A stretch of 21,958 nt of DNA from a virus. This document shows, piece by piece, positions 1-20,888 of this stretch. The DNA lies in IMG/VR virus record IMGVR_UViG_3300025151_000342, positions 1-21,958 of that record; one strand, given 5' to 3'. The notes under the pieces are model-generated. The model saw nothing but the letters and a program-made list of their open reading frames with translations, was not told the DNA's origin and searched no databases. The translations under genes and the position numbers were made by a program. How positions within the stretch are numbered: the stretch's first letter is position 1; every line of letters begins with the position of its first letter.

Positions 1-2735
1 TCCATGTCGTTGTTAGCGTCATCATAAGTGACTGCGATGAAGGTCTTGGTTCCTCCAGTAGCTACAAGCGGCCCTGCAATGTCTTGGACTTGTTCAGTGG
101 AGAGCTGTGTGTTAGTATCGGCAGTCATGTCATCGACAACCAAGTCTATGGTTCCGTCTCCGTCTTCATAGGTCGCGCTTATTCTCGTCTCTGTATTGGA
201 AGTGAACATAGCACCCACTATGTCTTGAACCTGCTCTGTCGTGAGCTGTGTATTCGTATCTGTGGAGGCCAATGTGAGGCTATTGCTCGCATCATCATAC
301 GTCAAAGAGATGTTCGATCCTGCGGTTAGAAGTGCATTGACCCTATCATCTACTCTTTCATTGGTGAAGTAAAGATTGCTAGAGCCCTCTGTGACATCAT
401 CAGTGGTTGATATCCCTGCACCTGCACCCACCACCAAATCTATGGTTCCATCAGCATCTTGATATGTTGCAGTGATATTGGTTTCCGTATTGCTACTAAA
501 CATAGCTCCTACAATATCTTGAACTTGCTCTGTGGAGAGTTGTGTGTTGGTGTCTGTCGATGCGAGAACGCCGTTTGTGGCCGTGAGATTAGAGCCAGCA
601 ATAGATGCTACAAAGTCTGCTATGGCCTCTTTCTTAGTGGCACCGGTAGCTCCTCCATCTAAAAACAAGAAATAGTCATCGGCAACAGCAACGGTCTCTT
701 CCGTTGCCTCTGATAAATCAACAGCTATTGACCCTGAGCTAATATCAATAAGACTCCCAGCAGAGATGTGCTGTTGAACGGAAGATGCAGATATTCTACC
801 ATCAGCAAAGGTTCCACTCGTTATTTTACTGGTTGCTAAGCTAGGAATATCAGATGCCGACAAACCATCATCAAGGATGTTTATCTCTGCAAGGGAGGCT
901 GTTATGCCTAGATTGGTCAGAGCGTTTCCTTGTTGTGTGCTATTGAGACCTTGGCTATCAACATCTACTCGTAATCTATTGCCCAAAGCCGTAGCCGTGG
1001 TTGTGGAGAACGATGCATCATCTCCCAAAGCCGCAGCTAACTCGTTCAATGTGTTCAGGGCTGCTGGTGCTGAATCAATTAATCCACTAACCTCGTTATC
1101 CACATAAGCTTTGATGGACTGTTGGCTCGCAGGTGATGTAGCACTATTGGAGGCAAAGTTATCTTCATCTAGGAGAGTCAGTTGATTTGCTACCGACAGA
1201 TCAATCGTACCATCGCCATCTTCGTAAGTGACGGTTATTCCAGATTCCGTGTTGCTTGAGAACATAGCACCTACGATATCTTGGACAGCTTCTGTCGTCA
1301 GTTGTGTGTTGGTGTCTGTAGCCGTGATGGTCACAGCACCCCCGCTTTCTGATATCGATATGTTAGAACCGGCGGTGAATGCTAGTGTTTCGCCACTAGC
1401 TAATGTATTGCCCCCCGCTGTGACAGCTCTTGGTTCAGTAAGAAAGCTGAACGATTGTATTTTGTCTTGAATGGCGGCCGAGGTCATCAAGCTCGTATCA
1501 TTATCCACAAACGACTCACCACTTGTCTGAACAGCTCCAGATGCTATGTCTGAAAATGCAACAGAGGAAGCGGTTGATAGGGAACCTAGTCCGAGATTGG
1601 TTCTCGCGGTGCCCGCATTGGCAAGATCAGACAAGTTGCTAGATTTAGCTAGCTTTGTCCCTATGCTGGTTGTAATTGTAGATGCGAAACTGGAATCGTC
1701 ATTTATTGCCGCTGCAAGCTCATTTAGAGTATTCAAAGCTCCCGGTGCAGAGTCTATGAGGCTTGATATCTCACTGTCCACATATGCTTTTATCGACTGT
1801 TGTGAAGCGGCATGTGTCGCTGAGTTAGAGGCCATGTTGTCCTCATCTTTGAGGTCAATGGCAATTGTAGCAGAATAGTCGCCACTGCCTGTGTTTGTTT
1901 CACTTTGAATGAGAATGCCGGTTCCACCCGTTAAATCTACACCGCTTGTAAAGCCAGATATCTCAGCCAGTATTTTATCTTGGATAGCAGCTGATGTCAT
2001 CAAAGAGGTATCGTTATCCGCAAATGACTCATTGCTAAGCTGGATACTGTTCGCGGCTAATTCTGAAACAGTAAGGCCACTCACATTGAGCGTGACGGCA
2101 CCTGATGTACCCCCACCCGACAACCCCGTGCCAGCAGTAACTCCGGTTATGTCTCCAGTCTCCTGTGTAACCCAATTGCTTCCATTGCCCACTATGGCCT
2201 GACCAGCAGTGGGTGTAAGCAACGATAGCTCCGTCAATCTGGTGCTCAGAGACTGAAACACGTCCGCACCTGTGATTTGATTGTTGGTGGGATTGATGAG
2301 CGTGGTATCGCTTCCAGCGGTCAAGCTGAATGTAACTACCTCACATTGCATGGTGTATCTGAACAGTTTTTTCGACCGATCAGATAGGTCGGTTCTAGTT
2401 TTGAAGATGATTCTGTCAATATTCGTGTTATCTCCCTTCCTAAACCCGTGAAGAATCCTACGAACTTCGTTACGCAGTACGGACAGTCTTTCTCTGCTTT
2501 TGACGGTCCTAATGTCTAAAGTCAGGTTGATATGCTCATTTACGAAATCGTACAGTAGCTCCGGTTGAGCCTCATTATGGGCGGTCTCGAAAATACGAAT
2601 AACGTCCTTATCTTGTAGCCTTACTCTCTTTCCATCGCCCTTGTCAAGAGTCGCTATGTCTTCTATTGATGGCTTAGGTGCTTTTGACCAATTAGCATCC
2701 AGAATATTTACGATAATGGAGATAGCATCCGTCAT
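1..2735 (-). CDS. Tail-completion-like domain fused to a long repetitive tail/neck fibre protein (3' end outside the window)
   Basis: Manual reverse-strand translation from the ATG at 2735 stays open to the left edge, giving at least 911 residues. Residues 1 to about 135 form a compact mixed domain (VRLQDKDVIRIFE, then LDIRTVKSRERLSVLRNEV, then a strand ending RYTMQCEV). This looks like the tail-completion/terminator proteins of HK97-type viruses; the assignment is by pattern only. From about residue 170 the protein is low in aromatics and rich in G, S, T, N and D, with TGVTAGTGLSGGG and recurring fibre modules (DTNTQL..EQVQDIVGAMF; SFxDNDTSLMTSAAIQDKI; SIKAYVD..LIDSAP). Such modules are known from trimeric fibres of marine tailed phages. 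Its start overlaps the stop of the 82-aa gene by ATGA. Probable role: host binding, or a fibre anchored at the neck or tail top. The fibre part is secure; the N-terminal call is tentative. Confidence 0.85.
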   Translation of the reverse strand, partial: MTDAISIIVNILDANWSKAPKPSIEDIATLDKGDGKRVRLQDKDVIRIFETAHNEAQPELLYDFVNEHINLTLDIRTVKSRERLSVLRNEVRRILHGFRKGDNTNIDRIIFKTRTDLSDRSKKLFRYTMQCEVVTFSLTAGSDTTLINPTNNQITGADVFQSLSTRLTELSLLTPTAGQAIVGNGSNWVTQETGDITGVTAGTGLSGGGTSGAVTLNVSGLTVSELAANSIQLSNESFADNDTSLMTSAAIQDKILAEISGFTSGVDLTGGTGILIQSETNTGSGDYSATIAIDLKDEDNMASNSATHAASQQSIKAYVDSEISSLIDSAPGALNTLNELAAAINDDSSFASTITTSIGTKLAKSSNLSDLANAGTARTNLGLGSLSTASSVAFSDIASGAVQTSGESFVDNDTSLMTSAAIQDKIQSFSFLTEPRAVTAGGNTLASGETLAFTAGSNISISESGGAVTITATDTNTQLTTEAVQDIVGAMFSSNTESGITVTYEDGDGTIDLSVANQLTLLDEDNFASNSATSPASQQSIKAYVDNEVSGLIDSAPAALNTLNELAAALGDDASFSTTTATALGNRLRVDVDSQGLNSTQQGNALTNLGITASLAEINILDDGLSASDIPSLATSKITSGTFADGRISASSVQQHISAGSLIDISSGSIAVDLSEATEETVAVADDYFLFLDGGATGATKKEAIADFVASIAGSNLTATNGVLASTDTNTQLSTEQVQDIVGAMFSSNTETNITATYQDADGTIDLVVGAGAGISTTDDVTEGSSNLYFTNERVDDRVNALLTAGSNISLTYDDASNSLTLASTDTNTQLTTEQVQDIVGAMFTSNTETRISATYEDGDGTIDLVVDDMTADTNTQLSTEQVQDIAGPLVATGGTKTFIAVTYDDANNDM
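70..1320 (-). repeat. Imperfect fibre repeats of about 42 residues
   Basis: Within the fibre gene the module DTNTQLTTEQVQDIVGAMF, followed by SxNTExxIxxTYxDxDGTIDL, occurs at about 1196-1320, 432-558 and 137-264. A fourth copy starts at about 126 and diverges after QVQDI, at about 70. The copies differ at many synonymous positions, so they are old protein repeats and not recent DNA duplications. Two further families lie upstream in the gene: the SFxDNDTSLMTSAAIQDKI module (about 1975-2045 and 1455-1530) and the SIKAYVDxEIS..LIDSAPxALNTLNELAAA module (about 1660-1840 and 990-1160). Confidence 0.85.
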
Positions 2736-2980
2736 TCAAAAACCTCCTCAAAGTCGGACATCGCCTTCTCAAGCTCTGCGTAAATAGGGTGGTTTTTCAT
2801 TTGTACGTCAACTATCTCTTCAATCTCAGTATCTGAATAGTTCAGACCGTCCTCCTCAGAGGATTGTTTTTCTACGGCAAGAAGCTTTTCATGAACAACG
2901 GGAGCGATGTCGTTAAACTTAGTGAGCTTGCTACTCAAATCATTGGTAGCTTTCTGAATTTTTTTAAGGTAGACATCCAC
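2732..2980 (-). CDS. Small helical protein between adaptor and fibre (possible neck or head-closure protein)
   Basis: An 82-aa acidic protein that starts with GTG at 2980, directly after the TAA of the adaptor gene and preceded by GGTGG. It is almost entirely predicted helix: KKIQKATNDLSSKLTKF in the first third, then an acidic segment (SSEEDGLNYSDTEIEEIVD), then HPIYAELEKAMSDFEEVFE. Cysteines and transmembrane segments are absent. It overlaps the next start by ATGA, which suggests translational coupling with the fibre protein. I do not recognise the family. Position between the head-tail adaptor and a tail-completion-like domain suggests a connector component or a small chaperone, but this is inferred from order only. 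Confidence 0.75.
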   Translation of the reverse strand: MDVYLKKIQKATNDLSSKLTKFNDIAPVVHEKLLAVEKQSSEEDGLNYSDTEIEEIVDVQMKNHPIYAELEKAMSDFEEVFE

Positions 2981-4588
2981 TTAACCACCTACTCCTGCCA
3001 CGATTATAGTTTCCTGATAGGGGATCAATAGACGCTTAGTTTCCTCTTCTAACTTCTGTACCTTTGAATTTAGGTCTATATTTTGTGTTCCTTCGGGGAA
3101 CAAAGCAGTGTAGTCATCGGAAAGCAGTATATCCTTGACAACCATTTTAGTGCAAGCTTCTTCTATCGTTTTATTGACGTATCTCTGACCATAGATGTAA
3201 GATACCTTCAAACTATGATTCTCGAAAAATGGATATTGGTTATTGAATAAGACCGCGCCGTTATCTTCTATGGCCCACCAGTCCTTCTGTCTCTCCTCAT
3301 CTGAAACGTCGGTCTTAAAACGCAATTGATTGATTGTTACTGAGCTACTAACAGCTGCTATGAAATTGCTAGTGAGGTCAGAAACTATGGTAAATGTATC
3401 TCCAGACCGGGTTATGAGAGCAACTTTATTCACATTCGTGCCATCTTCTATAAATACTAATCCAGATCCTTCCACAAAACCAGAGGAATCGGCCAGAGTG
3501 AATGATGAAACTGGAGTTCCTGTGGTAGTCGCCACAGTGGATGAAACAAGTGTCCCTTTGTCATGAGTGAGTCCGACGGGGTTATTCACTGCGATGGTGC
3601 TGTTAATTCCATCCTCGCCAGCCCTCATACTACTGATACATATCACTCCGTCACCGTCATCGCTATTTGCTGTAGCTAGATATTCGTTGGATACATTTAG
3701 GTCTTTGCCGTTTTGTGTCAGCGTTCCTATTTGTATCGCGGCCTTGCTAGTATCTGGGTCTTCATTTATCAAGCCCGCTATTTCATCGGCCACAGACTTA
3801 GCTCCGAAATCATGAATCCACTTAGAGGTGGATGTATCTCCACTGGCGCAGCCTTGTAGAGTAGCTGCATGAGCTACGTTTGGGCATAGGAATATTTTAC
3901 TAGAGCTGGATATACTACCCATGTCTGAAACCTTTAACTTGATTCGACCAGAAGCTAGCTCCCGATAGTAATCACCCTGCCATACCCCCATTCTCAATAT
4001 CTGTCGAATATTTCTATGGTTGAGATACACAGCACCCACATAGTCAGTGTAGTATCTTCTTCTGTACGGCTTGAATGTCGTGAAGTTTTTGTATTCATCG
4101 ACCACTATTCTAGGCCTCCATGCGCTTCTCGTAACCTGATCGATGTAATCCTGTTTCTTCTTAATTAGATTCTCAACATTGGCCTTGGTTATTCCCCTTT
4201 GCTTACTGTTACTAAGTATAGCCGAGGGTTGGACAAACCCATTATTGTCCTTACTAAACGTATTACCATCATTTGGTGCTATCAACCATATTGCCCCGCT
4301 GGACCCAACCGATTGAACGCTTCCAATTACATACGTAGCACCAAGAGCATTTACATCATCATAAACAGTTACGGTATCTCCTGCTCCTACACCCCATCTC
4401 CTGTAATCGGCACCTGCGATTGGAATCCTTATGTTGCTACTACTGACGCTAGTCGAATCTACAAGAGCTATTGGCTCAGTTTCGGGCAATTGTAAAAATT
4501 GCACAACTTTGTCAACAGTAGTATAGACAAGATCGTCAGGATAGAGGGGCTGACTGGGTCTATGCCCCGGATTGAATGTTCTTGGCAT
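2981..4588 (-). CDS. Head-tail adaptor (connector) protein with large beta-rich insertions
   Basis: A 535-aa protein starting at ATG 4588, with GGAGGAG about 8 to 10 nt upstream. Two separated helical parts look like an HK97 gp6-type adaptor. One is residues ~133-155 (TKANVENLIKKKQDYIDQVT, then RSAWRP); the other is the C-terminal ~95 residues (NKTIEEACTKMVVKDILLS, then DDYTALFPEG and a coiled-coil-like KVQKLEEETKRLL). Between and before them are beta-rich, Thr/Ser/Val-rich stretches (about 35-125 and 215-425) unlike the compact ~100-150-aa adaptors of classical phages. Role (inferred): the ring below the portal that forms the first part of the neck. Its position after the capsid genes and before the tail-completion-like gene fits. 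Moderate certainty on function, high on the gene. Confidence 0.8.
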   Translation of the reverse strand: MPRTFNPGHRPSQPLYPDDLVYTTVDKVVQFLQLPETEPIALVDSTSVSSSNIRIPIAGADYRRWGVGAGDTVTVYDDVNALGATYVIGSVQSVGSSGAIWLIAPNDGNTFSKDNNGFVQPSAILSNSKQRGITKANVENLIKKKQDYIDQVTRSAWRPRIVVDEYKNFTTFKPYRRRYYTDYVGAVYLNHRNIRQILRMGVWQGDYYRELASGRIKLKVSDMGSISSSSKIFLCPNVAHAATLQGCASGDTSTSKWIHDFGAKSVADEIAGLINEDPDTSKAAIQIGTLTQNGKDLNVSNEYLATANSDDGDGVICISSMRAGEDGINSTIAVNNPVGLTHDKGTLVSSTVATTTGTPVSSFTLADSSGFVEGSGLVFIEDGTNVNKVALITRSGDTFTIVSDLTSNFIAAVSSSVTINQLRFKTDVSDEERQKDWWAIEDNGAVLFNNQYPFFENHSLKVSYIYGQRYVNKTIEEACTKMVVKDILLSDDYTALFPEGTQNIDLNSKVQKLEEETKRLLIPYQETIIVAGVGG

Positions 4589-6975: not shown

Positions 6976-8142
6976 TCAGGCACTCAAGTCCCTTATCTTC
7001 CCGTGGGCTCCGTAGAACAGTTGCCATAGGTCTCCCATTGTGTGGAACATTCCCATCTGGCCAAGCCTGTTGATTCCGAATGGATCGCCAGTCTCTATAC
7101 CAGACTCGTGGTAAAGTGTTGGTTTTGCTGTGCAGAAGTACATGTAGTCAGTGTCCATGTAGTAAAGTCGGCTTAGTCCACCGCCGTCTTCGATTACATC
7201 CTTAGAAGGAATTAGTGGTACGCCGTTGTAGGTAGCTACTATGAAACCGGCTTCCATACCGGGTACACCTGTTACTCCGTTGACTCCGGGTACTACTCTC
7301 TTCATCTCTGTGAACCTCTGCTGAGGTTGTAGGAGCTGCTGGATCTTCTCCAGAGTGTCGTAGCCTGTTAGGATAACCTTTGGCTGTCCACCTCTCTCCC
7401 AGATGCTTCGGAACATACCGTCAAGGATGTTGAGAGTTAGTGCTCTCTCGGTCCCTGAGCTTCCTGCATCGACGTTTGCATCATACCACTGTTGCGAGCT
7501 TCCATCGTCTGCTCTGTCGATGTTGTACTGCTTGTGGTCTCCAGCGGAAATGTCGCTGAAGCTTGTAGTCTCGATGTTTGTAGCAGAGATACACCTGTCG
7601 ATTGACTCGAAGTTGTTCAGTGTTGTCTCTCTGTTACCCACGTCGTCAAGAAGCATTTTGTTGATCATCTCAGCGTGATGCTTAGCCATCTCCATCTTCA
7701 TGACAGCTCTTGCATCTCCAAGACCATCATCCTTGTCAGCAAGGAACATTGCAGTCTCGCTCAGATCAAATGTGTGAGCTACAGTTCTTGGCTTATCGCT
7801 AACAGCAGCGAAGGTAGGCTTGCTGGTGTCAGGTAGTGTTCCGTTCTCAGGTAGTCCGCCACTGATGGTATCTGATGGCTTTGCAGTGACGACCCTCCAT
7901 CCTGACTTCTCCCATGGCTTCTTTGGTAGTATTGAGAAGGCGTTGAACTCTTGATTGAGCTGTGACCATACCTTCCTTCCAAAGATAGCTTGGTAAGTTC
8001 CTGTGGTCGAGCTCATTAGTGGAGAGTCTGCCTTTAGCAAGTCAGTGCCACTGTACGCCCATGCGTTCTGTCCCGCACCTGCACCGTAGTACATGCGCTC
8101 CATGTCTTCTATTGTTCTGATGTATCCTCTTGATCCACTCAT
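6976..8142 (-). CDS. Major capsid protein, HK97 fold
   Basis: A 388-aa protein with a strong SD (CGAGGTGAA) 5 to 6 nt before ATG 8142. The order protease/scaffold - this gene - small beta-rich gene, and the length, are those of HK97-type shell proteins. Visible features: an early segment YQAIFGRKVWSQLNQEFNAF followed by LPKKPWEKSGWRV; a central long helix region (DARAVMKMEMAKHHAEMINKM, quoted in part); the peripheral part GGQPKVILTGYDTLEKIQQL; and late strands VPLIPSKDV and YYMDTDYMYF, typical of these proteins. It has no obvious N-terminal delta domain, consistent with a separate scaffold supplied by the protease fusion. Expected to form the icosahedral shell that is filled by TerL. Family from pattern and order; confidence is high. 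Confidence 0.9.
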   Translation of the reverse strand: MSGSRGYIRTIEDMERMYYGAGAGQNAWAYSGTDLLKADSPLMSSTTGTYQAIFGRKVWSQLNQEFNAFSILPKKPWEKSGWRVVTAKPSDTISGGLPENGTLPDTSKPTFAAVSDKPRTVAHTFDLSETAMFLADKDDGLGDARAVMKMEMAKHHAEMINKMLLDDVGNRETTLNNFESIDRCISATNIETTSFSDISAGDHKQYNIDRADDGSSQQWYDANVDAGSSGTERALTLNILDGMFRSIWERGGQPKVILTGYDTLEKIQQLLQPQQRFTEMKRVVPGVNGVTGVPGMEAGFIVATYNGVPLIPSKDVIEDGGGLSRLYYMDTDYMYFCTAKPTLYHESGIETGDPFGINRLGQMGMFHTMGDLWQLFYGAHGKIRDLSA

Positions 8143-8172: not shown

Positions 8173-9540
8173 TTACTCGCCTCGGACGGCCCTCCTTGCC
8201 AGTTCTTCGACGGCCCTCCAGCCTTCTAGGTCATTGCCCATTGCGGCAAATTCCTCATGGGAAGGGACACGAATGTCAGTTGTTGGGGTTGCATCGGATT
8301 TTGCGATATCTGTTGCGCCAGCACGTAGGGTCTGAATTTCAGCACTTAGAGCTGCGATTTGTGAGGAGTAGTCCTGAGACTTTCTCATCTCTTCAGCCCT
8401 TGCTGTTTCAGCAGAGTATCTCTCTTCCCACTGTGCCTTGACCAGAGTCTTGAGCGCTTCCTCGTCTTTCATAGTTGCATATGCCCTGTAGCCTCTCTCT
8501 AGGCCTTCTGGCGTAACATCTCCAGCCTTGATGACATAGTTGTTACCTGATGCCTCGTTGTAAGCCATGTTGTCTACACCGGGCTGCTTGATGACGTACT
8601 GATTGCCACCGGGAGCTGGTAGAGCTGGTTTTGCGGTCTCGGTTGCGTCCTCGCCGCTGCCGATTTCATCGCCCTGTCCTCTGTGAGAGTAGCCACCGTC
8701 TCCGTATCCGGGCAGATATGCCTTCTCAAGACCGAAGTGCCCACGTAGTTTGTCAAGATCAATTCCCTGCTCGTGTGCAAACTTCTCAAGAGTATCGATG
8801 TAAGCCACTGCGGAGTCTTCGGATTTCTGTGGGTCCTCATCCTCTTTCATCTCTTTCATCTCCTTTTCCTCGGAGTACATCTTGTCTTCTTTCTTTCCTT
8901 TGGCGACATCTTCATCCATGTGCTTCAACACACGGGAGAGTCCGTCCCTTATTTCGTTCAATGCTTCGCTTTCTGTCATTTTTTCCACTTCCGTTTCATC
9001 CATTTTCAAAATTGTATATCGAGCTTCGGGGTTAATCCCTTTCTTGCACAGAGTAACCTCGTGTAGCTCTAGCTCGGTAATCTCACGGTGGTTGCCATGC
9101 TCAGGGGTATGCTTGCTTACCCTAAACAGTGCCTGTCCACCTATGGAGAAAGCTCGGAGGTCTCCGTCACGGATTTGCTTCTGCACCTCTCTCGCTTTCT
9201 GTATGTCGCTGCGTATCTTGCATACGACGAATAGGCCGTGGTCATCCACTTCGGATTTCCACAATCGGCCTTGTGAATCAGTGTGGTCGGCTACAACCTC
9301 TCCAACCTGAATACCGCTATGAGCTAGCTGTACGTTTCTGAACGCTTTGTTGCCCATGAATTTATCAAATGCCTTACCTAGAGCATCTGAAGGAATCCTG
9401 TCACCCTGCTTGTCCACCATATCCACACTGGCGTATCCTGCGATATAGAGATCCCCATTCTTCGTTTCCGACTTCATGATGAAATCAGAACCTACCGCAC
9501 TCCATCTTAGGGAGGGTTGTAGTGTAGCCTCTGCGGACAT
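8173..9540 (-). CDS. Prohead maturation protease fused to a scaffold-like C-terminus
   Basis: A 455-aa protein when started at ATG 9540. A TTG at 9561 would add 7 residues, but the TATA-like box 27 nt upstream supports the ATG. Residues ~20-185 match the HK97/U35 prohead protease pattern: an opening strand YIAGYASVDMVDKQGDRI, His74 in QLAHSGIQVGEVV, Ser132 in DLRAFSIGGQALF, and the closing LELHEVTLCKKGINPEAR (acidic residue 161). His and Ser are the expected catalytic pair. After residue ~190 come acidic and Lys-rich helices (MKEMKEDED), a Gly/Pro linker, two GNxYVIK segments (312-318, 332-338) and a coiled-coil-like tail, as in a scaffold. The capsid gene follows. The protease would mature the shell and degrade the scaffold part. 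Confidence 0.9.
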   Translation of the reverse strand: MSAEATLQPSLRWSAVGSDFIMKSETKNGDLYIAGYASVDMVDKQGDRIPSDALGKAFDKFMGNKAFRNVQLAHSGIQVGEVVADHTDSQGRLWKSEVDDHGLFVVCKIRSDIQKAREVQKQIRDGDLRAFSIGGQALFRVSKHTPEHGNHREITELELHEVTLCKKGINPEARYTILKMDETEVEKMTESEALNEIRDGLSRVLKHMDEDVAKGKKEDKMYSEEKEMKEMKEDEDPQKSEDSAVAYIDTLEKFAHEQGIDLDKLRGHFGLEKAYLPGYGDGGYSHRGQGDEIGSGEDATETAKPALPAPGGNQYVIKQPGVDNMAYNEASGNNYVIKAGDVTPEGLERGYRAYATMKDEEALKTLVKAQWEERYSAETARAEEMRKSQDYSSQIAALSAEIQTLRAGATDIAKSDATPTTDIRVPSHEEFAAMGNDLEGWRAVEELARRAVRGE

Positions 9541-9558
9541 TGTAGGGGCATCGTTATT

Positions 9559-9570
9559 CAATCGTATATG
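9559..9570 (-). promoter_or_regulatory. TATA-like box upstream of the protease gene
   Basis: The minus strand reads CATATACGATTG. ATACGATTG begins exactly 27 nt before ATG 9540, the spacing of an archaeal TATA box to a leaderless start. No SD lies between them. The same 9-mer is at 14954-14962, and a one-base variant lies 27 nt before ATG 5415. Confidence 0.5.
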
Positions 9571-9600: not shown

Positions 9601-12600
9601 TCAGGTTATAGAATCCGTGCGAACGCTAGGCTGAGGCTCTGTTGCCGATTTTTTTTTCTTGGGTGGAACACGCATAATCGCTTCTTCTTCGCTAATTTCA
9701 ATTTCGGGTTTTTCTATATCTTCAGATATGATATTCAACTGTGCTATATCCTCTTCTTCCCTTTCGTCGTCCTTACCTTGCCTTGGGTCTCCGAAAGTTG
9801 TATTGATTTCTTCGTTGATCTCTGTTGGGCCCATAGGTGCTGTGATATCTGCTTGCATACCTGACCACGCACCTCCATCGGCAGAAGCTGCATTCATTCT
9901 AGGATACTTGAATTTCTTAATCGGAGTATCTACAATGTCGTCATCAATAGCTTCATTGAGTGTGAATTTACCATCCTCGGTTCTTTCTATGCCATATTCT
10001 CCCCCGAACCTGAGAAGATGGTCATGTTTCAAACCTTTCACCTTTTCACACAACTCATCAGAGGTCAAAGATTCATCACCGACTTCTATGGCCGAAACCG
10101 CCCGTCTCATCATATGCTCTATATCGTCACTTTCTTCGTCATTGACAGCAGGTGCTTTTTTGAGTCTCCTCTTTTTCTTTTTTCGAGTAACAGAATGAAC
10201 TGGGTTATATGTCCCTGCATCTGTAGACATTACGGTGCCTGACCCTCCAGAGGCGGGAGCTGCGCCTCCGCCCCCCGCTTCCTTTAGAAGAAATGCCACA
10301 GGGGGTATCCATAGGTCTTGTTGTGATATCGCTTGTTTTACCAAATATGATAGTCCCTCGTAACCGTCAATATATGTCCCTTCATCATCCATACCCAAAT
10401 CAACTTTTACGACGGATACTATTTCTGGATACTCCAAATATAGTTGAGACCCGTTTATTGTTATCTCAGGAAGAGGAGGATATACTTTTGATTTTGATAT
10501 TTCATCATTAGCGAATAAAATCCATTTTGGGTGTAGCTCTTTGTCTTTGATAAATGTCGAAGATGCATCTCTAACTAGAAATTCACCCTTGTCAAAAGCG
10601 GCTATGGCTTTAACCAGCCCATCGTGATCCGAAAACGAACAATTCGACGGAGCAGGAAAGTGCACATTATCTGTAGAATGGTACAATGTCTTTAGAACAT
10701 TAATTCTATCCTCTAAAGGTTCAAAAGATAAATCGGTCCCCTTATGGACTAACAAATCCACCACACTCAATTTGTCGCCGTCAAGGTAAGCGTCCAAAGT
10801 AAAATTGCCTTTCATCTCCTTGAGGTCTTTACTAATTCCCTTCGGCATGCTTGGCTCTAATCTCTTCCCCTCCTTTTTGATTAGCTTACGATCTCCTTCT
10901 GGTTTCTTCTGAACTACCCAGCTTCCACTAAATCCCTTCATCGTTTCTAAATCATCCAAGTCCTTGACAATATGTGCGGGCTTAATGAGGTCTTTACCAA
11001 ACACTCCAGTCAACTCATAATCATCGGCTTTGTGTAAATCGGTCAATAAAGCTGGAAATCCTCTTGCCCCTCTCTCCAATAGATTGATTTCTTTCTGTTT
11101 GCTTCTTATTGCTTTGATATGGAAAGCCGGGTCTACGGCCCTAATGTGTTCCTCGTGTGCCGTTCTTTGCATGATGTTGAAGGGTTGTTCAGTGACATTA
11201 AACTCTATGTCCCCTGTGTCCGAGTCATATTTCCAAGTCAAAGTTGCTGGCATTAGATGCCCCCAAGCATCTGTATTGCCTGAGTTGAAGATGGGAGGCA
11301 CAACGGCTCTAGCGGTCGGGGAGAGTGGCTCAAAGTACCCATTACTAGCGATTAATTTCATAGTGGTTGTATCTGGCAGAGGCATTTCTGTGAATTTTGC
11401 TGTATCTCCGTTTCTCATTAAACGGTAGTTTACAGCAGCTAGAAGCTGTTGAATGTTACCTCTTGCGATAGTATTTCCTTCAACATTCATAAATTGTTTA
11501 GTATCGTCTTCTGATTTACTTCTAAGAACCTCAATTCCAAATTTTTCCATGACTTCATTGGCCATTCTTTTTGCTTCAAATGTCATCGTATTACTTGCGT
11601 ACCTATTCAGTTGATTGTGAAGATCGTGAAACTCGGGGTTTGAATTGGGATGTTCTTCCCCAATGAACGGTGCCAACGCAGCACCGTGCTCACCAACATT
11701 CATCATAGCCCTTCCAAATGGACTCATTGTGTATGCGGTGTGTGGTATCATCATAACTGAGCCTTGACCCTCTATTTCCGATGGATGTAAATGATGATGA
11801 TGTGCTGACCCCCCACTCCAATTAGCCCTCTTTCTCTCAAAATCTAAATTCATCTGTGAATCGGACGAAAGAATGTCTGCGTATTGTTGGCCGTTAGGCG
11901 AATTAGATGCGCCGGGATAATGTGACCCTGCAATCATATGTTTGCCTATAATTGGAAGTGCGTCCATTAACAGGTTACTTAGCCAAGAGCCTGTAAATAT
12001 CTTTGAGTAAGATTGCATGAAAACTTGTTTGAGTGAGTTAAGGTCTCTGCCAACACCTCCCCAATATTGGTATGGCTCCCACCAATGATAATTGTGGTTC
12101 TTCTCCCCCGCTTCAGTCCACGGAGAGCTGTGATAGCGGTCGGGAGAGTTGGGCATATCAGGTTGTGTAGGGCCGGATTTGTCAGCTGGTCTTGACCACC
12201 ATGCTTTGAGAGGAGTGGCTCTGTCTCTCCAATTTCTAAGTAGTCTATCAAATGTTATGCCACCTTTCTCTTGCATCTTATTGATCACGGTTCTAGCTTC
12301 GGGTGAATTCGGTTCTGAAGACATTGATAATTCGGAAAGCAACCCCATTATGACCTCCCTTTGCTCGCCAGTTTGATATTCAAGACCAAATAAGTATGAT
12401 AGCAAGCCATAATCACCCGACAACTCCTCCTTCTTTTGTTGCATATAGCCCTCATCGGTTAGCTCACGGTATCTGTTTCTATCAACCGAGTATAGATCAA
12501 ACATGCTTTCAGTGGGGTCGCCATAATTGTCTAAAACGGCCATCAAATCAGGCCTTATTCTTCTCTCCATTTCTCTGTGAGTCTTCATTGGTTCGCCTAT

Positions 12601-12999
12601 GAATTTCAAAACTATATCCACATACGCAGGGTCTCCATGAGCACCTCCATGAAGAAGGGGGCAGCTGTTGGACTCAAAATCAAATGGTTGATGCTTTCCG
12701 AACTTATTGTCCATTTCTGCCTCTGGCCAGTCACCGGAATAACTCGTGGATATTTTCGTATGCCCCGCGAGAAAGGCTTGCATGTCCGATGGCATAACCA
12801 TCTTGGAAGGCGGCATTGGTTTATCTAAATCCCTCATGGAATAAGCAGGGGGGTCGATTGCCACGGCTACAGTGGCAGTGTCAAAACTTGTAGCTTCGAC
12901 CTCTTCTAGCTTAGATAGGTATGATTCAAGATCATAATCTTGACCAGTGAGAGACGATAGCAGAACGTCTGTTCTCTGTCTGATTATTTCTTCTGACAT
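9601..12999 (-). CDS. 1132-aa capsid-operon protein with a degenerate DNA-ligase/nucleotidyltransferase domain
   Basis: ATG at 12999 follows GAGGTGAGTA. Residues 1 to ~640 are not recognised; they are Trp/Met/Asn-rich with a His cluster at 400-405 (HHHHLH). Residues ~655-845 resemble the adenylation domain of ATP-dependent ligases. Motif I is KPEGDR (K699-R704), in WVVQKK context. The motif III region is DAYLDGDKLSVVDLL (736-750), followed by LEDRINVL. A motif IV-like GEFLVRD lies at 805-811 and a motif V-like W826 (PKWILF). The spacing fits the family, but motif IV lacks the EG order and motif V lacks its Lys pair, so activity is doubtful. The C-terminus has RKKKKRRLKK (939-948) then acidic low-complexity sequence and KKKK near the end. 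Sits between small head genes and the protease. A virion, scaffold or ejected protein is possible. Confidence 0.85.
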   Translation of the reverse strand: MSEEIIRQRTDVLLSSLTGQDYDLESYLSKLEEVEATSFDTATVAVAIDPPAYSMRDLDKPMPPSKMVMPSDMQAFLAGHTKISTSYSGDWPEAEMDNKFGKHQPFDFESNSCPLLHGGAHGDPAYVDIVLKFIGEPMKTHREMERRIRPDLMAVLDNYGDPTESMFDLYSVDRNRYRELTDEGYMQQKKEELSGDYGLLSYLFGLEYQTGEQREVIMGLLSELSMSSEPNSPEARTVINKMQEKGGITFDRLLRNWRDRATPLKAWWSRPADKSGPTQPDMPNSPDRYHSSPWTEAGEKNHNYHWWEPYQYWGGVGRDLNSLKQVFMQSYSKIFTGSWLSNLLMDALPIIGKHMIAGSHYPGASNSPNGQQYADILSSDSQMNLDFERKRANWSGGSAHHHHLHPSEIEGQGSVMMIPHTAYTMSPFGRAMMNVGEHGAALAPFIGEEHPNSNPEFHDLHNQLNRYASNTMTFEAKRMANEVMEKFGIEVLRSKSEDDTKQFMNVEGNTIARGNIQQLLAAVNYRLMRNGDTAKFTEMPLPDTTTMKLIASNGYFEPLSPTARAVVPPIFNSGNTDAWGHLMPATLTWKYDSDTGDIEFNVTEQPFNIMQRTAHEEHIRAVDPAFHIKAIRSKQKEINLLERGARGFPALLTDLHKADDYELTGVFGKDLIKPAHIVKDLDDLETMKGFSGSWVVQKKPEGDRKLIKKEGKRLEPSMPKGISKDLKEMKGNFTLDAYLDGDKLSVVDLLVHKGTDLSFEPLEDRINVLKTLYHSTDNVHFPAPSNCSFSDHDGLVKAIAAFDKGEFLVRDASSTFIKDKELHPKWILFANDEISKSKVYPPLPEITINGSQLYLEYPEIVSVVKVDLGMDDEGTYIDGYEGLSYLVKQAISQQDLWIPPVAFLLKEAGGGGAAPASGGSGTVMSTDAGTYNPVHSVTRKKKKRRLKKAPAVNDEESDDIEHMMRRAVSAIEVGDESLTSDELCEKVKGLKHDHLLRFGGEYGIERTEDGKFTLNEAIDDDIVDTPIKKFKYPRMNAASADGGAWSGMQADITAPMGPTEINEEINTTFGDPRQGKDDEREEEDIAQLNIISEDIEKPEIEISEEEAIMRVPPKKKKSATEPQPSVRTDSIT
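10465..11037 (-). other. Ligase-like (nucleotidyltransferase) domain inside the 1132-aa protein
   Basis: This stretch encodes residues ~655-845. The lead-in KPAHIVKDLDDLETM corresponds to the conserved strand/helix before motif I in ATP ligases. The putative adenylated lysine is K699; the acidic residue of motif I is E701 instead of the common D. Motif III has D742 where Glu is usual. Motif IV is G805-E806 rather than E-G, and motif V reads WILFA rather than WxKxK. Fold similarity is probable by motif order and spacing; catalysis is uncertain. Confidence 0.6.
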
Positions 13000-16208: not shown

Positions 16209-16594
16209 TTCTTCCCCTTCTTTGACTTCTTCTTCCAGCCCCCGCCTTTGGACTTATACCACTTAGATGCCCAAGCGTTAGCATAAGCTGAGGGATATAC
16301 ATCGAATTTAGAACGAGCCTTTGACTTGGCCTGTGACCATAGGCTTGGATTGGTCGGGGCGTTGTCGCCTTTCGCTATGCCCCATGCAAACTCAAAAGCG
16401 TCCGAGCTTGCGTTTTTTTGCTGAAACTTGTCAGAAAAACCTTTGTCTCCTGTTTCTGCTTTAGGTCTGGGGAGGTAATCTTCAGGATTTTTTGGCTTCT
16501 CATCGGGCCTTGGATTTCTCATATCATCAGGAATTTTCTTTCCTGATTTTTTGTCTGGCTTATACGGCCCGTAGTCGTCTGCCATGTCACTCAT
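16205..16594 (-). CDS. 129-aa YPSAYA-family basic protein
   Basis: ATG at 16594 lies in the end of the portal gene (8-nt overlap); ATG 16585 is also possible, and a GTG at 16597 is less likely. The first ~55 residues are Pro/Lys/Asp-rich and disordered. Then DAFEFAWGIAKGD (the shared helix motif) leads into LWSQAKSKARSKFD and VYPSAYANAWASKWYKSKGG, and a tail WKKKSKKGKK. The YPSAYAN.WA.KWYK..GG block is a well-known small domain of marine phages and large viruses with no established function (family known to me by pattern). It is extremely basic at the C-terminus. In this operon it follows the portal and precedes another basic, Cys-rich protein, so a nucleoid or capsid-interior role is conceivable. 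Confidence 0.85.
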   Translation of the reverse strand: MSDMADDYGPYKPDKKSGKKIPDDMRNPRPDEKPKNPEDYLPRPKAETGDKGFSDKFQQKNASSDAFEFAWGIAKGDNAPTNPSLWSQAKSKARSKFDVYPSAYANAWASKWYKSKGGGWKKKSKKGKK

Positions 16595-18113
16595 CACCCG
16601 GCCAATCGTTTTTGTCTATTTCGTCTGACTTTTGGACGGGAGCACCCCCGCCCTGTTGAGCTGCTGCTTCAGCTGCTGCTTGTTCAGCCTGCATCTCCTC
16701 TGGCGATGGCTCTGCGAAGTCAAACTTGAGGTAAGCGTCATCTATGTCGTCCCTGAGCTTGGCCTTGTATCCTGCCTGCTTCATCTGCATCATGTTGCGG
16801 ATAGCCATCTCGTCTCTCCTCATCTGCATGATTTCATCTTCTTCCTCATGAGGTGTCAGAGATATCTTCCACTCATCTATCCCGAAAGCTTCCATTAATG
16901 CAGGGAAGACAAGCCTATCATAAACGGACTGTGAATATGAAACAGACCTGTTGCTGACTACGATCTGCATACCTTCGTTATTCAATCCGCCTCCTGTCAC
17001 GTCATTCATAAATACGTTAGAAACACCATAGAAAGCAGAGATTCGTTGCCTTATGTCGTCCTTTATGGGGATATACTGTAGCTCTTCCAATGTATCCATC
17101 ATCCTAACATACTCAAGGCCACCGCGTCCTGATTCTGTTTCAACCCCTATGGTCGGTATGTAATTCGGGTCTCTCTCAAGATGTTCCTGAATGTTACGTG
17201 CGGTTCGCTCTACGGTCTCCATATTGGATGACTTGATTACCATAACTCCTCTTGGCATTCTCTTTTTCTGATATGCCGAATAAACATAGTTATCCATGGC
17301 GATAAGAGTATTGACCTGCCTCCACATGGTAGCTACAGGACTTCGTCCATACAGCTTGGAAGGAGACCACTTGCTGATGTGTATGACCTCGCCTTCAGTA
17401 TATACTTGTCCAGAGCCAACACCGGCTAAATTCATGTAATGAATTGGAACCACTCTCATACCGGTAACTGGGCACTTTGCCTCTGAATCGGATGTCCTGA
17501 AAGACCGGTCAACTAAGCTAGTGTACTGAGACCCCCCGCGAACACCCCTTTTGTCGGACACTATTCTCATGAATATAGGATCAGCTCTTGTTATCTCTTT
17601 CACTCTGTAAAAGGCGGGCTTTCTGGTTTTAGGGTCTACAAAGTATTCCTTAGTGACTATGATATATGCATCGTCTACTATGTTCAAGTCCATCTCTATT
17701 TCCTTTAGAACGTCAATAAATGTCTGTCCCATACTGTTTTTTGTGGTGAACACTGAGTTTGCATATTCCAGTTGTGACCGATCTGCCTTGCGTACTTCTC
17801 CACCGTCTTCAGGGTCAGTCTCATACTCCTGATTATATTCTTTATCGGAAGTCACGCCTTTCACCACAAATTTAGGCTTCCAGCCCCAACCCTTCCTGAA
17901 CGTCTCTACTGTGAGGTGATTTAGTATGGAACGAAGCACCATGCACTCATATGCAGCCGCGTATAATGCCGGTATCGTAATTCCCTGTAAAAGAGGCGGT
18001 TCTTGTACGCCGGACGTGAACAAAGGCATGGTTGGAGTAGGGGTCGTGTGTCTCTCCATGTCCATTCCAACGGCAGAGAACAGACGGTCCATTCTTTGTT
18101 TGTCCAATGCCAT
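16587..18113 (-). CDS. Portal protein
   Basis: A 508-aa protein starting at ATG 18113, sharing a base with the previous stop (TGATG). The pattern is that of phage portals: N-terminal GITIPALYAAAYECMVLRSI, then a wing region (FIDVLKEIEMDLNIVDDAYI), then VIHISKWSPSKLYGRSPVAT, MWRQVNTLIAMDNYVYSAYQKK and MPRGVMVI. Next come the stem/clip area, IPIKDDIRQRISAFYGVSNV followed by FMNDVTGGGLNNEGMQI, and the C-terminal crown, rich in Glu, Gln and Ala. The last ~40 residues (AEQAAAEAAAQQGGG and PVQKSDEIDKNDW) are disordered. The dodecameric ring forms the DNA channel at one capsid vertex and docks TerL. Immediate context (TerL two genes upstream) confirms this. Confidence 0.92.
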   Translation of the reverse strand: MALDKQRMDRLFSAVGMDMERHTTPTPTMPLFTSGVQEPPLLQGITIPALYAAAYECMVLRSILNHLTVETFRKGWGWKPKFVVKGVTSDKEYNQEYETDPEDGGEVRKADRSQLEYANSVFTTKNSMGQTFIDVLKEIEMDLNIVDDAYIIVTKEYFVDPKTRKPAFYRVKEITRADPIFMRIVSDKRGVRGGSQYTSLVDRSFRTSDSEAKCPVTGMRVVPIHYMNLAGVGSGQVYTEGEVIHISKWSPSKLYGRSPVATMWRQVNTLIAMDNYVYSAYQKKRMPRGVMVIKSSNMETVERTARNIQEHLERDPNYIPTIGVETESGRGGLEYVRMMDTLEELQYIPIKDDIRQRISAFYGVSNVFMNDVTGGGLNNEGMQIVVSNRSVSYSQSVYDRLVFPALMEAFGIDEWKISLTPHEEEDEIMQMRRDEMAIRNMMQMKQAGYKAKLRDDIDDAYLKFDFAEPSPEEMQAEQAAAEAAAQQGGGAPVQKSDEIDKNDWPGDE

Positions 18114-19480
18114 CAGAGCACACTCTCCCTCAATTTATCAAATGCGTCCACGCCTATATTCTTAGACTTTAAGAATGCGACTTGTTCTTTCTTTTTTAGA
18201 GATTCATAAGTCAAAACTGTCATGGCGTCATCATCTCCGTCCAACGCCCTCTTTAACAGAGATATGTCTGTTTTTGGTTCATCAATAAATGAGTATGAAA
18301 GGTCGAACGCTTTTCTTATTCCTTCTTCACCATTTATACATAGTCCAGAGCTAGCGGCCTTAACAACATCAATGCCGAGCTCATGATTCAACGCCGTTGC
18401 ATACCATGGAGCAGTAGGGGCTGAGAAATTGAGTTCCAAACGTGGATTATAACGACTATCATACTTCACATCTGCATTGTTTTCAATCAAACCGGCTATA
18501 AACCTACCAGCGTCCTTGAGGATCACATCTCTCCGTTTAACATCATAGAACAATCCCCTGCCCACAGACTTACTCACCTCTCCCACGGATATTATGTCAA
18601 ATAGGAAGCCGTGCGATTTGATTAAAGAGGATATTTCGGCAGGGCTAGCAGCCACTCCATTGAACTTGAGAGTCTGCGCGTTCAATGCACCTCTGTCCAA
18701 AAGAAGGTCCGCACACTGTTTGAGTATGCTTCTCTCTCTCATTGAGAGCCTTATGTCTGCATCAATAACTTCTCTCCAACTCTCGTATGATTTAGTCTGA
18801 GATGCAACGTCCTTAGCGTCCGACCACATTTTAACAAATCTTCTAAATGGTATGCCAAGTCTGTCCGAGTATCGATTTAGGTTATCATAGTCTACGTCCG
18901 TGAGTGGTAAGGTCTTTACTAAATCGGGTGAGACACCGGGAAACGATGCAAGAATCGCCTGTTTCTCCTGTACTAATAATGGGTACAATGCATCTAATGC
19001 GGTCATTTCATTTTTGAGAATAAGGAGAGATGCCATTTCTGATCCTGTCATACCAAAGTTGTTTACAAACCAATTCTTGTCAATTGATAGTTTTATCTCG
19101 TTTGGGTCTTGAAGTAATCCTGTTTTACTTGGAGCGTTTACCTCGGTCCCTGCTTGGTCCGTTTCTGGACTATCACTTTCGGGATTATCCATACCACGGA
19201 CTCCAACACCCTGCCCCTGCTCAGTTTTTTGTTGCGTTTTCTTATCGGTCTCAGCTCTTGCAGATGCCTCTTGTTCAGCCGTTTGAAGCTCTTGAGTAGC
19301 AGTTTCTACTTCTCTTTCCTTGGCCGATAGTTTATTCTTCGCGGCCTCTATCATAGCATCAGCCACCTTGCCTCCAGCATATCCAGCAACAGCAGCAGCC
19401 GCAGGATTCTTTCTAATGTCGAGTGCATCACTTAAGCTCTCGACGCCTGTTATACCATCAATATACCGCCTCTCAAGCAT
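18113..19480 (-). CDS. Unrecognised 455-aa protein between TerL and portal
   Basis: ATG at 19480 is preferred (8-nt overlap with TerL, GGGGTGGG upstream) over one 13 codons earlier. Residues ~24-50 are an Ala/Gly-rich segment (NPAAAAVAGYAGGKVADAMI), followed by a coiled-coil-like stretch (KEREVETATQELQTAEQEA) and a Ser/Thr/Asp/Pro-rich linker. The remaining ~320 residues look like a folded globular helical domain (SLLILKNEMTALDALYPLLV; SWREVIDADIRLSMRERSIL; LFYDVKRRDVILKDAGRFIA). No catalytic motif stands out. The Ala/Gly segment could enter a membrane, but its charge is not ideal. It sits where some phages keep a head-assembly chaperone or ejected protein. Function unknown. Confidence 0.75.
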   Translation of the reverse strand: MLERRYIDGITGVESLSDALDIRKNPAAAAVAGYAGGKVADAMIEAAKNKLSAKEREVETATQELQTAEQEASARAETDKKTQQKTEQGQGVGVRGMDNPESDSPETDQAGTEVNAPSKTGLLQDPNEIKLSIDKNWFVNNFGMTGSEMASLLILKNEMTALDALYPLLVQEKQAILASFPGVSPDLVKTLPLTDVDYDNLNRYSDRLGIPFRRFVKMWSDAKDVASQTKSYESWREVIDADIRLSMRERSILKQCADLLLDRGALNAQTLKFNGVAASPAEISSLIKSHGFLFDIISVGEVSKSVGRGLFYDVKRRDVILKDAGRFIAGLIENNADVKYDSRYNPRLELNFSAPTAPWYATALNHELGIDVVKAASSGLCINGEEGIRKAFDLSYSFIDEPKTDISLLKRALDGDDDAMTVLTYESLKKKEQVAFLKSKNIGVDAFDKLRESVL

Positions 19481-20888
19481 CGGCCCACCCCAATCTGTTA
19501 CGCCATGTCGCCCCGTCAAGGATCACAATGTTCTCTCTGTATTCCTTTGTGGCTTGCACTGCAAGTGCTAGAGCTATGACCATGTCATCGTGAGCACCCA
19601 GACTTTCCATCTTGCCATTCTCTAACATCGTGAAATACGATAGCTCGGTGAGAAGGGCATTCATATGCCTTCTAGTAGCTCCCTCATCTTTGTATGGAAT
19701 CAATAAGTGCCTTTGCTCAAAGTGTAGTTGTAAGGTGTGTATGAGTGCTTCCTTCTTCATTCTACTCATATTGAAGGGTTTGATAGGTAAATCACTAATT
19801 TCTTGTAAGACTTGATTGAATGCCATGGCAAAGTTATTCGTTTCAAGCTCTATAATTACCGGATTGAACCTAGCATTGAGCTCAATTATTTTTTCAATTT
19901 GTTGATTGAAGTCCATGTTCTTTTCGTGATGTGTGTGGACAACACGCTTGTGTCTGTTCTCGTCCATGCCAATTACCATCATACAAGTATAATCAGCTCT
20001 ACGGTCTGCACTGATAGCTGGGTCCCAACCTATGTAATAATTCAGACTTTCATCTGGGTCGGGATAATACGATAATGAGAGTGTATCATCTTTGACCCTG
20101 TCTAAAACCTCTTCAGGGAATAAGCTAGACTCACTAGCTATTGGTTTACACAGGTACTCTCTGGTAAAAGCAATCGATGTCATTTCGCCCTTCCTAGCAT
20201 TCAATGCTTCCAAATTCCATCTCTCTGGCCACAATGGTTCTCCGGTAGCCTCATTGATCGCAGGATACTCCCCAACTGCATACCCATCAAGACTCTTTAG
20301 CTCAGAATAGAGGTCGGTGTATGAGAATGGGGTACCTACTATGCAAAGCTGTGCAGTGTGGTGAAGAACAGGTAGAAGAGCTGTATAGAACCATGTGGCT
20401 ATAGCTTTGAGCTGGGTCTGAGCTTCGCTTGACAGTATATCGTCAAGAACCACTATGTCAGGGTGAGCACCACGAACAGCCTTACCGACAGACATAGCTC
20501 TGATCGATGACTTGTTAGTCATCTTGAATAGCTGCTTTGCCCAACCTCTCTTCGGCTTCAGATGAGCCAGAGCTGGAGTTGTCATGATGAGTTCATCCAT
20601 CTTGGCCATGTGGTCTATGGATTGATGCTGACTGTGGCTGAAGAAGAGAACCTCTGTATTGGGAGTGTATGCCATTCTCCACAACAGGTAGCACCTGAAG
20701 AAGACCGATTTGCCGTGGTCACGACTGGCTATGACGCATATCTTGCTGTTGTTCTGTGCCATCTCATACCATTCTTTGTGAAAGTCTGCTAATTGAAAGC
20801 CGCATATATCCTCGAAAAAGAACCTGAAATCACGCCTGCCCATGTCGAAATCGACTTTGCTGGTAAGCTTCTGGACTGCTTCACTCAT
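19473..20888 (-). CDS. terL: Terminase large subunit (TerL)
   Basis: A 471-aa packaging motor with both expected domains. ATPase: Walker A variant ASRDHGKS (54-61), Walker B DIVVLDD (144-150), coupling motif VGTPF (184-188). RNase H-like nuclease: GWDPAIS with Asp289, IELETNN with Glu348/350, and GAHDDMVIALALA with Asp434-Asp435. These residues are the metal ligands in characterised TerLs. The length is in the usual 400-600 range, and the first ~35 residues are charged. ATG at 20888 has GGGGTGG upstream and overlaps the previous gene by 8 nt. TerL cuts concatemeric DNA and pumps it through the portal, which is encoded two genes downstream. Catalytic residues appear intact. Confidence 0.95.
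   Translation of the reverse strand: MSEAVQKLTSKVDFDMGRRDFRFFFEDICGFQLADFHKEWYEMAQNNSKICVIASRDHGKSVFFRCYLLWRMAYTPNTEVLFFSHSQHQSIDHMAKMDELIMTTPALAHLKPKRGWAKQLFKMTNKSSIRAMSVGKAVRGAHPDIVVLDDILSSEAQTQLKAIATWFYTALLPVLHHTAQLCIVGTPFSYTDLYSELKSLDGYAVGEYPAINEATGEPLWPERWNLEALNARKGEMTSIAFTREYLCKPIASESSLFPEEVLDRVKDDTLSLSYYPDPDESLNYYIGWDPAISADRRADYTCMMVIGMDENRHKRVVHTHHEKNMDFNQQIEKIIELNARFNPVIIELETNNFAMAFNQVLQEISDLPIKPFNMSRMKKEALIHTLQLHFEQRHLLIPYKDEGATRRHMNALLTELSYFTMLENGKMESLGAHDDMVIALALAVQATKEYRENIVILDGATWRNRLGWADA

Follow-up and report, generated by a model that had tools for sequence, protein, structure and literature searches.

A gene at the edge of a stretch of viral DNA of 21,958 nucleotides (IMG/VR record IMGVR_UViG_3300025151_000342, positions 1 to 21,958; the window, below) is best read as a tail terminator with a giant C-terminal fibre, and in the virion the terminator ring probably holds very large fibre trimers to the neck. 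The fusion noticed in the earlier note is confirmed, and the readings of the domain and of the gene are supported by fold comparison, by gene order and by a clade of related viruses. The fibres are likely to sit at the neck, a placement deduced from the domain to which they are fused.

Results

The fused gene in the window

The window covers the structural region only, a block of genes on the minus strand that runs from the terminase through the portal, the protease, the major capsid protein (MCP) and small genes to a protein in the connector position (Table 1). The frame at 3-2735 begins with an ATG at 2735 and runs off the end of the record, which truncates the gene and makes the fibre length seen in the window a lower bound. 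The earlier note had described an N-terminal domain of about 135 residues that passes without interruption into more than 700 residues of fibre. Each part of that description holds: residues 1-137 are compact and contain all three motifs that had been quoted, RYTMQCEV among them, 771 residues (as a lower bound) come after residue 140, and the frame is open for all 911 codons, the fusion being clade-wide and present in 32 of 81 related loci. The fibre part matches tail-fibre PHROGs (phrog_1197, E 2e-31), and family searches of the window's proteins returned no Pfam or PHROG match for residues 1-140. Matches to THUMP (above the cut-off), BTB_3 and Mrr_cat within the fibre were rejected as repeat noise, since no stretch passed alone.

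Table 1. Features of the window discussed in the text
Feature	Position	Strand	Basis
Fused terminator-fibre gene	3..2735	-	Open frame; fusion shared by 32 of 81 related loci
Tail-terminator domain, residues 1-137	2325..2735	-	AlphaFold model, PDB fold matches, free homologues of 141-144 residues
Linker, about residues 138-190, kept across the fused clade	2166..2324	-	Alignment of 25 distinct fused sequences
Start of fibre shaft, repeated units	3..2165	-	PHROG tail-fibre matches; motif counts
82-residue gene	2732..2980	-	Four-base overlap with the start of the fused gene
535-residue protein, connector position	2981..4588	-	Position; matches only phrog_17057, of unknown function
Major capsid protein	6976..8142	-	phrog_24667, E 8e-52; 33-35% identical to Druskaviridae MCPs
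Prohead protease	8173..9561	-	Peptidase_S78
Portal protein	16587..18113	-	phrog_18178, E 2e-56
Terminase large subunit	19473..20888	-	phrog_38, E 6e-74

Three further genes of the window can be remarked upon. The protein in the connector position has 526 to 612 residues among relatives (L004, L008, L011), a size range that suggests a variable inserted domain. A protein of 1,132 residues is encoded at 9601-12999, with the protease on one side and the small genes that follow the portal on the other, and is 45% identical to its counterpart in the Poseidoniales single-cell contig described below. Chalcone isomerase was rejected as an assignment for the 82-residue gene, its Pfam score being below the cut-off.

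Fold of the N-terminal domain

The profile of the domain matched PDB sequences at chance level only, and because sequence searches were uninformative a fold comparison was required. The AlphaFold model of the domain, built with 46 relatives, is of mixed helix-strand type (pLDDT 77.9, pTM 0.73); its alignment is shallow, at 69-96% identity to the window, and residues 33-36 and 57-59 have a pLDDT below 50. The top Foldseek match in the PDB was a tail chain of HFTV1 (9fkb_Pa, E 9e-7), and 16 chains passed E 0.001, most of them labelled terminator, cap, collar, connector or neck. With VIA-align, the model gave a Z score of 14.3 against the HFTV1 chain (137 aligned residues, rmsd 3.9 A), 13.1 against T5 p142 (134 aligned, rmsd 3.7), 12.7 against a Bxb1 connector chain and 11.4 against lambda gpU (122 aligned, rmsd 3.8). 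We assume that the HFTV1 chain is gp29, described as a hexameric tail completion protein, an assignment that comes from the HFTV1 literature and not from the chain label.

Among phage records, a tblastn search with the domain produced three matches only, at E 0.5-0.9, which were HCTV-1 (twice) and HCTV-16. The proteins concerned, HCTV-1 gp119 and HCTV-16 gp123, are about 30% identical to the domain (hhalign probability 94.8), and they are encoded one small gene ahead of the tail tube, which is annotated in HCTV-16. HVTV-1 gene 127, in the equivalent position, matches the domain weakly (E 0.004 against that single sequence). The earlier proposal that the domain is a tail terminator is supported by the predicted fold, by a position adjacent to the tail-tube gene in sister viruses and close to it in haloviruses, and by the distant sequence similarity to HCTV-1 gp119; a baseplate or fibre-attachment fold, the result that had been set against it, is not what the comparison returned. 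The domain belongs to the terminator fold; the whole fused protein is not a plain terminator. The size of a plain terminator, about 110-160 residues, is found in the sister clade and is exceeded in the clade of the window.

Free and fused clades

A first scan of viral contigs with the domain gave 11 loci. Counts are based on 81 loci, near-copies included, that comprise the best 80 of 176 relatives from a profile scan and one locus from a genome scan. A further contig scan yielded mostly the same contigs and was left out of the counts, and L102 (Pseudolysobacter, 28 residues at 62%) was dropped for want of a tblastn match. The domain is a free protein of 141-144 residues in 49 of the 81 loci and is fused in 32, with no intermediates, and the frame of all 32 fused loci is open to the end of the locus or of the readable sequence. 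A maximum likelihood tree of 57 distinct domain sequences separates 23 fused sequences, including the window, from 34 free ones by one branch with support of 100/99, and throughout the fused clade the domain is always fused. Its conservation is equal in the two clades, and a second copy was not found in any of 26 fused records, which are incomplete. When the tree is rooted with HCTV-1 and HVTV-1, the fused clade is nested within the free one, with both outgroup branches at the length limit; the fusion is considered derived mainly because the outgroups carry a free domain.

The junction

Across the 25 distinct fused sequences the linker aligns without a break into the fibre, and they share no Shine-Dalgarno-like internal start that could give a separate fibre. 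Evolutionary rates were compared in 10 pairs. In domain and linker alike, the synonymous rate is above the amino-acid rate in every comparison for which the two could be calculated, three of the 20 synonymous values being saturated and three pairs being so close that changes are few; the linker is under less constraint than the domain. A 48-residue linker unit recurs, at 67% identity, in a pelagiphage protein that has a different N-terminal part and matches tail-fibre families, indicating that fibre units of this kind occur behind other anchors.

Gene order and the tail tube

The tail-tube gene starts 9-42 bases past the terminator match in all 49 free loci. In fused loci it lies 10.2-13.4 kb past the domain, in seven out of seven that reach that far, two more (L113 and L114) being too short to reach it. 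The interval holds the fibre and up to three same-strand genes of at least 85 residues each. This order puts a fibre block between terminator and tube, and the first of the fibres shares the reading frame of the terminator. Beyond the tube gene, fused record L013 encodes a chaperone-like protein and a tape measure. Two fused-clade records encode homologues of the tail-tip proteins of one free-clade record, and the window's fibre gave no match in three free-clade records over the 20 kb that start at the terminator. With tail-tip homologues present in both clades, the fibre looks like an addition.

The tube protein has 717-859 residues among 41 distinct copies (for example L083:6440-8608, free, and L013:11519-13717, fused) and is 57% identical over its full length between one free-clade and one fused-clade virus. 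A model of the protein from a free-clade virus (723 residues, pLDDT 71.4) gave Z scores of 20.1 against the P74-26 tube and 17.3 against the T5 tube, and its architecture suggests a T5-type tube that has been duplicated and has gained a decoration insert. Tube domains match at both ends of this model, and the middle (about residues 214-470) is tailspike-like or baseplate-like.

Between fibre and tube, L013:8600-11467 and its equivalents in L111 and L112 consist of variable accessory genes, one of which has FN3 domains (a Hoc-like decoration profile) and another of which, of about 190-200 residues, has no Pfam family. Tail-tip proteins of about 1,400-2,700 residues are encoded after the tape measure in both clades (L014, L017, L110, L117).

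Fibre size and C-termini

How long are the complete fibres? Seven of the 25 fused virus records have a complete gene free of gaps, three contain N gaps and 15 run off the contig end; the gene-length figures omit the single-cell locus, whose apparent frame of 25,282 or 3,473 codons arises from withheld bases counted as open, but the locus stays among the 32 fused loci. From stop to stop the seven complete genes have 2,857 (twice), 4,300, 3,214, 2,575, 4,052 and 3,738 codons, and six of them (not G004) have 2,855, 4,298, 3,214, 2,574, 4,047 and 3,733 codons from start to stop. Shafts in six viruses are 2,434-4,158 residues long, against 464-740 residues for the tape measures. Using the rises per residue of lambda and T4, the fibres would be about 134-283 nm and the tails about 73-117 nm long, as a rough estimate.

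The C-termini differ among the six complete fibres, as expected for receptor-binding parts. One of the six (L116) ends in Peptidase_S74 (E 3e-14), a chaperone type known from the C-terminus of trimeric tail fibres, another has long repeats that match tail-spike and virion-structural families, and the C-termini of the remaining ones show no clear Pfam family. The C-terminus of the window's own fibre lies beyond the end of the record.

Relatives and host

The fusion is also present in a single-cell contig of the Poseidoniales, an abundant group of ocean archaea (CACGHY010000002.1, from AG-422-I20), where the frame is open for 1,275 readable codons. Where they are readable, the homologues in this contig are 89% (terminase large subunit), 80% (portal), 71% (protease) and 81-86% (MCP) identical to the window's proteins. 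The presence of the fusion together with the head genes in a single-cell contig of this group identifies the virus of the window as a magrovirus; the source of the contig may be a virus particle that was sorted together with the Poseidoniales cell. The named relatives of the MCP are haloviruses of the Druskaviridae, at 33-35% identity, in eight of nine records, and the ninth is a Methanofastidiosa virus, at 26%. Magroviruses and haloviruses are reported to be kin, with which these MCP relatives agree. Magroviruses carry replication genes of their own (PolB and others); the window spans structural genes only.

Discussion

Where on the virion would a fibre made as the tail of a terminator be found? 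In the arrangement that we propose, six N-terminal domains would form a ring that caps the tail tube on the side of the head, as their counterparts do in HFTV1, T5 and lambda, and this ring would dock to the head. From it the chains of the fibres would emerge at the neck and trimerise, giving two trimers if all six join. Such fibres, whose estimated length exceeds that of the tail, could serve as whisker-like adhesins, long enough to extend beyond the tail tip and touch the Poseidoniales surface. A precedent for an outward C-terminal extension, in a contractile phage, is provided by phage Milano, in which the C-terminal arm of the terminator is reported to extend to the top sheath ring. The symmetry mismatch of trimeric fibres on a six-fold ring counts against the model. 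The modeled tube matches the T5 type, and if the rings are three-fold, two trimeric fibres would misfit that symmetry as well.

Other explanations of the fused gene have to be weighed against this one. The window's gene touches the contig end, where a wrong base or a chimeric contig might have joined separate terminator and fibre genes, but such an artefact is scarcely credible when 32 of 81 loci, drawn from one single-cell genome as well as many metagenomes, have the same open junction, and when synonymous change exceeds amino-acid change on either side of it; chance or a chimera is untenable on the same grounds. A biological alternative is that one polypeptide is made and is cut in the linker during assembly, so that the ring would be that of an ordinary terminator and the released fibre would take up another position. 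That the free terminators of the sister clade stop right where the linker begins, and that the window includes a prohead protease gene, fit with such processing, but in 25 distinct sequences the linker is conserved and runs on into the fibre, and an always-cut fusion would have nothing maintaining it, and we consider cleavage improbable.

Somewhat less probable again is a re-use in which the domain does nothing but attach fibres to the neck or capsid and another protein serves as the terminator. Since the fused records are fragmentary or of uncertain completeness, a diverged second terminator could have escaped the search, and the capsid turrets of HFTV1 are reported to be encoded in the corresponding interval: by their numbers, turret proteins gp30 and gp31 come after the completion protein gp29 and before the tube gp35, so genes located between terminator and tube need not be for parts of the neck. 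Against an anchor-only role, the two clades conserve the domain equally well, the tube gene of the fused clade is no longer preceded by a free copy, and no second copy was found in 26 records. A terminator that carries its fibre in the finished virion is the explanation that we favour. A wider proposal, to which we give even chances, is that the terminator itself has become an adhesin platform, so that a single step would both finish the tail and equip it with fibres that considerably exceed it in length, and that this lineage first touches its archaeal host by neck fibres and not by the tail tip.

Covalent fusion predicts the place of a fibre from sequence, and it gives a testable idea of host contact in viruses whose host group is among the most abundant uncultured archaea. 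A natural control is provided by the sister viruses, in which the terminator is free and the tail homologous. No report of a terminator-fibre fusion was found in the open-licence literature on terminators, neck fibres and Marine Group II tail fibres, and the words fiber, fibre, neck and terminator are absent from one magrovirus paper.

Comparison with known systems draws on the literature on HFTV1, Milano, T4, XM1, the lactococcal neck passage structure and magroviruses (PMC10160649, PMC8651126, PMC6669499, PMC4493119, PMC12494034, PMC10491603, PMC12886913). The closest in fold is the chain taken as HFTV1 gp29, from an archaeal tailed virus, which matches over nearly the whole domain and is reported to sit between connector and tube. 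It is a free protein of 156 residues, unlike the fused domain of the window, and HFTV1 is described as having its fibres at the baseplate and capsid turrets as its extra adhesins. The Druskaviridae proteins HCTV-1 gp119 and HCTV-16 gp123 are distant sequence relatives that likewise precede the tube by one small gene, but they are free, with 162 residues and no fibre. Lambda gpU and T5 p142 share the fold of the window's domain, and the TP901-1 terminator Ttp is reported to be placed before the tail-tube gene, as in the sister viruses; however, these three and SPP1 gp17 are all free proteins of about 130-160 residues.

Known fibres of the neck differ in what carries them. The lactococcal neck passage structure (TP901-1 ORF51 and 936 phages) is described as a neck fibre that ends in host-binding modules, but it is a separate protein with a BppU-like N-terminal domain. 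The 50 entries listed for the fold of the window's domain do not include BppU, an absence that does not count against a BppU-like fold. In TP901-1, ORF51 is reported to lie after the BppL/baseplate genes, whereas the fused gene precedes the tube gene. The collar whiskers of T4 (gp wac) and the collar spikes of XM1 (gp40) are also fibres or spikes at the collar, although they are reported to be carried by a separate collar protein and not by the terminator. Neck fibres and tail terminators were known already, but as separate proteins in the literature searched; in the clade of the window they are encoded as one.
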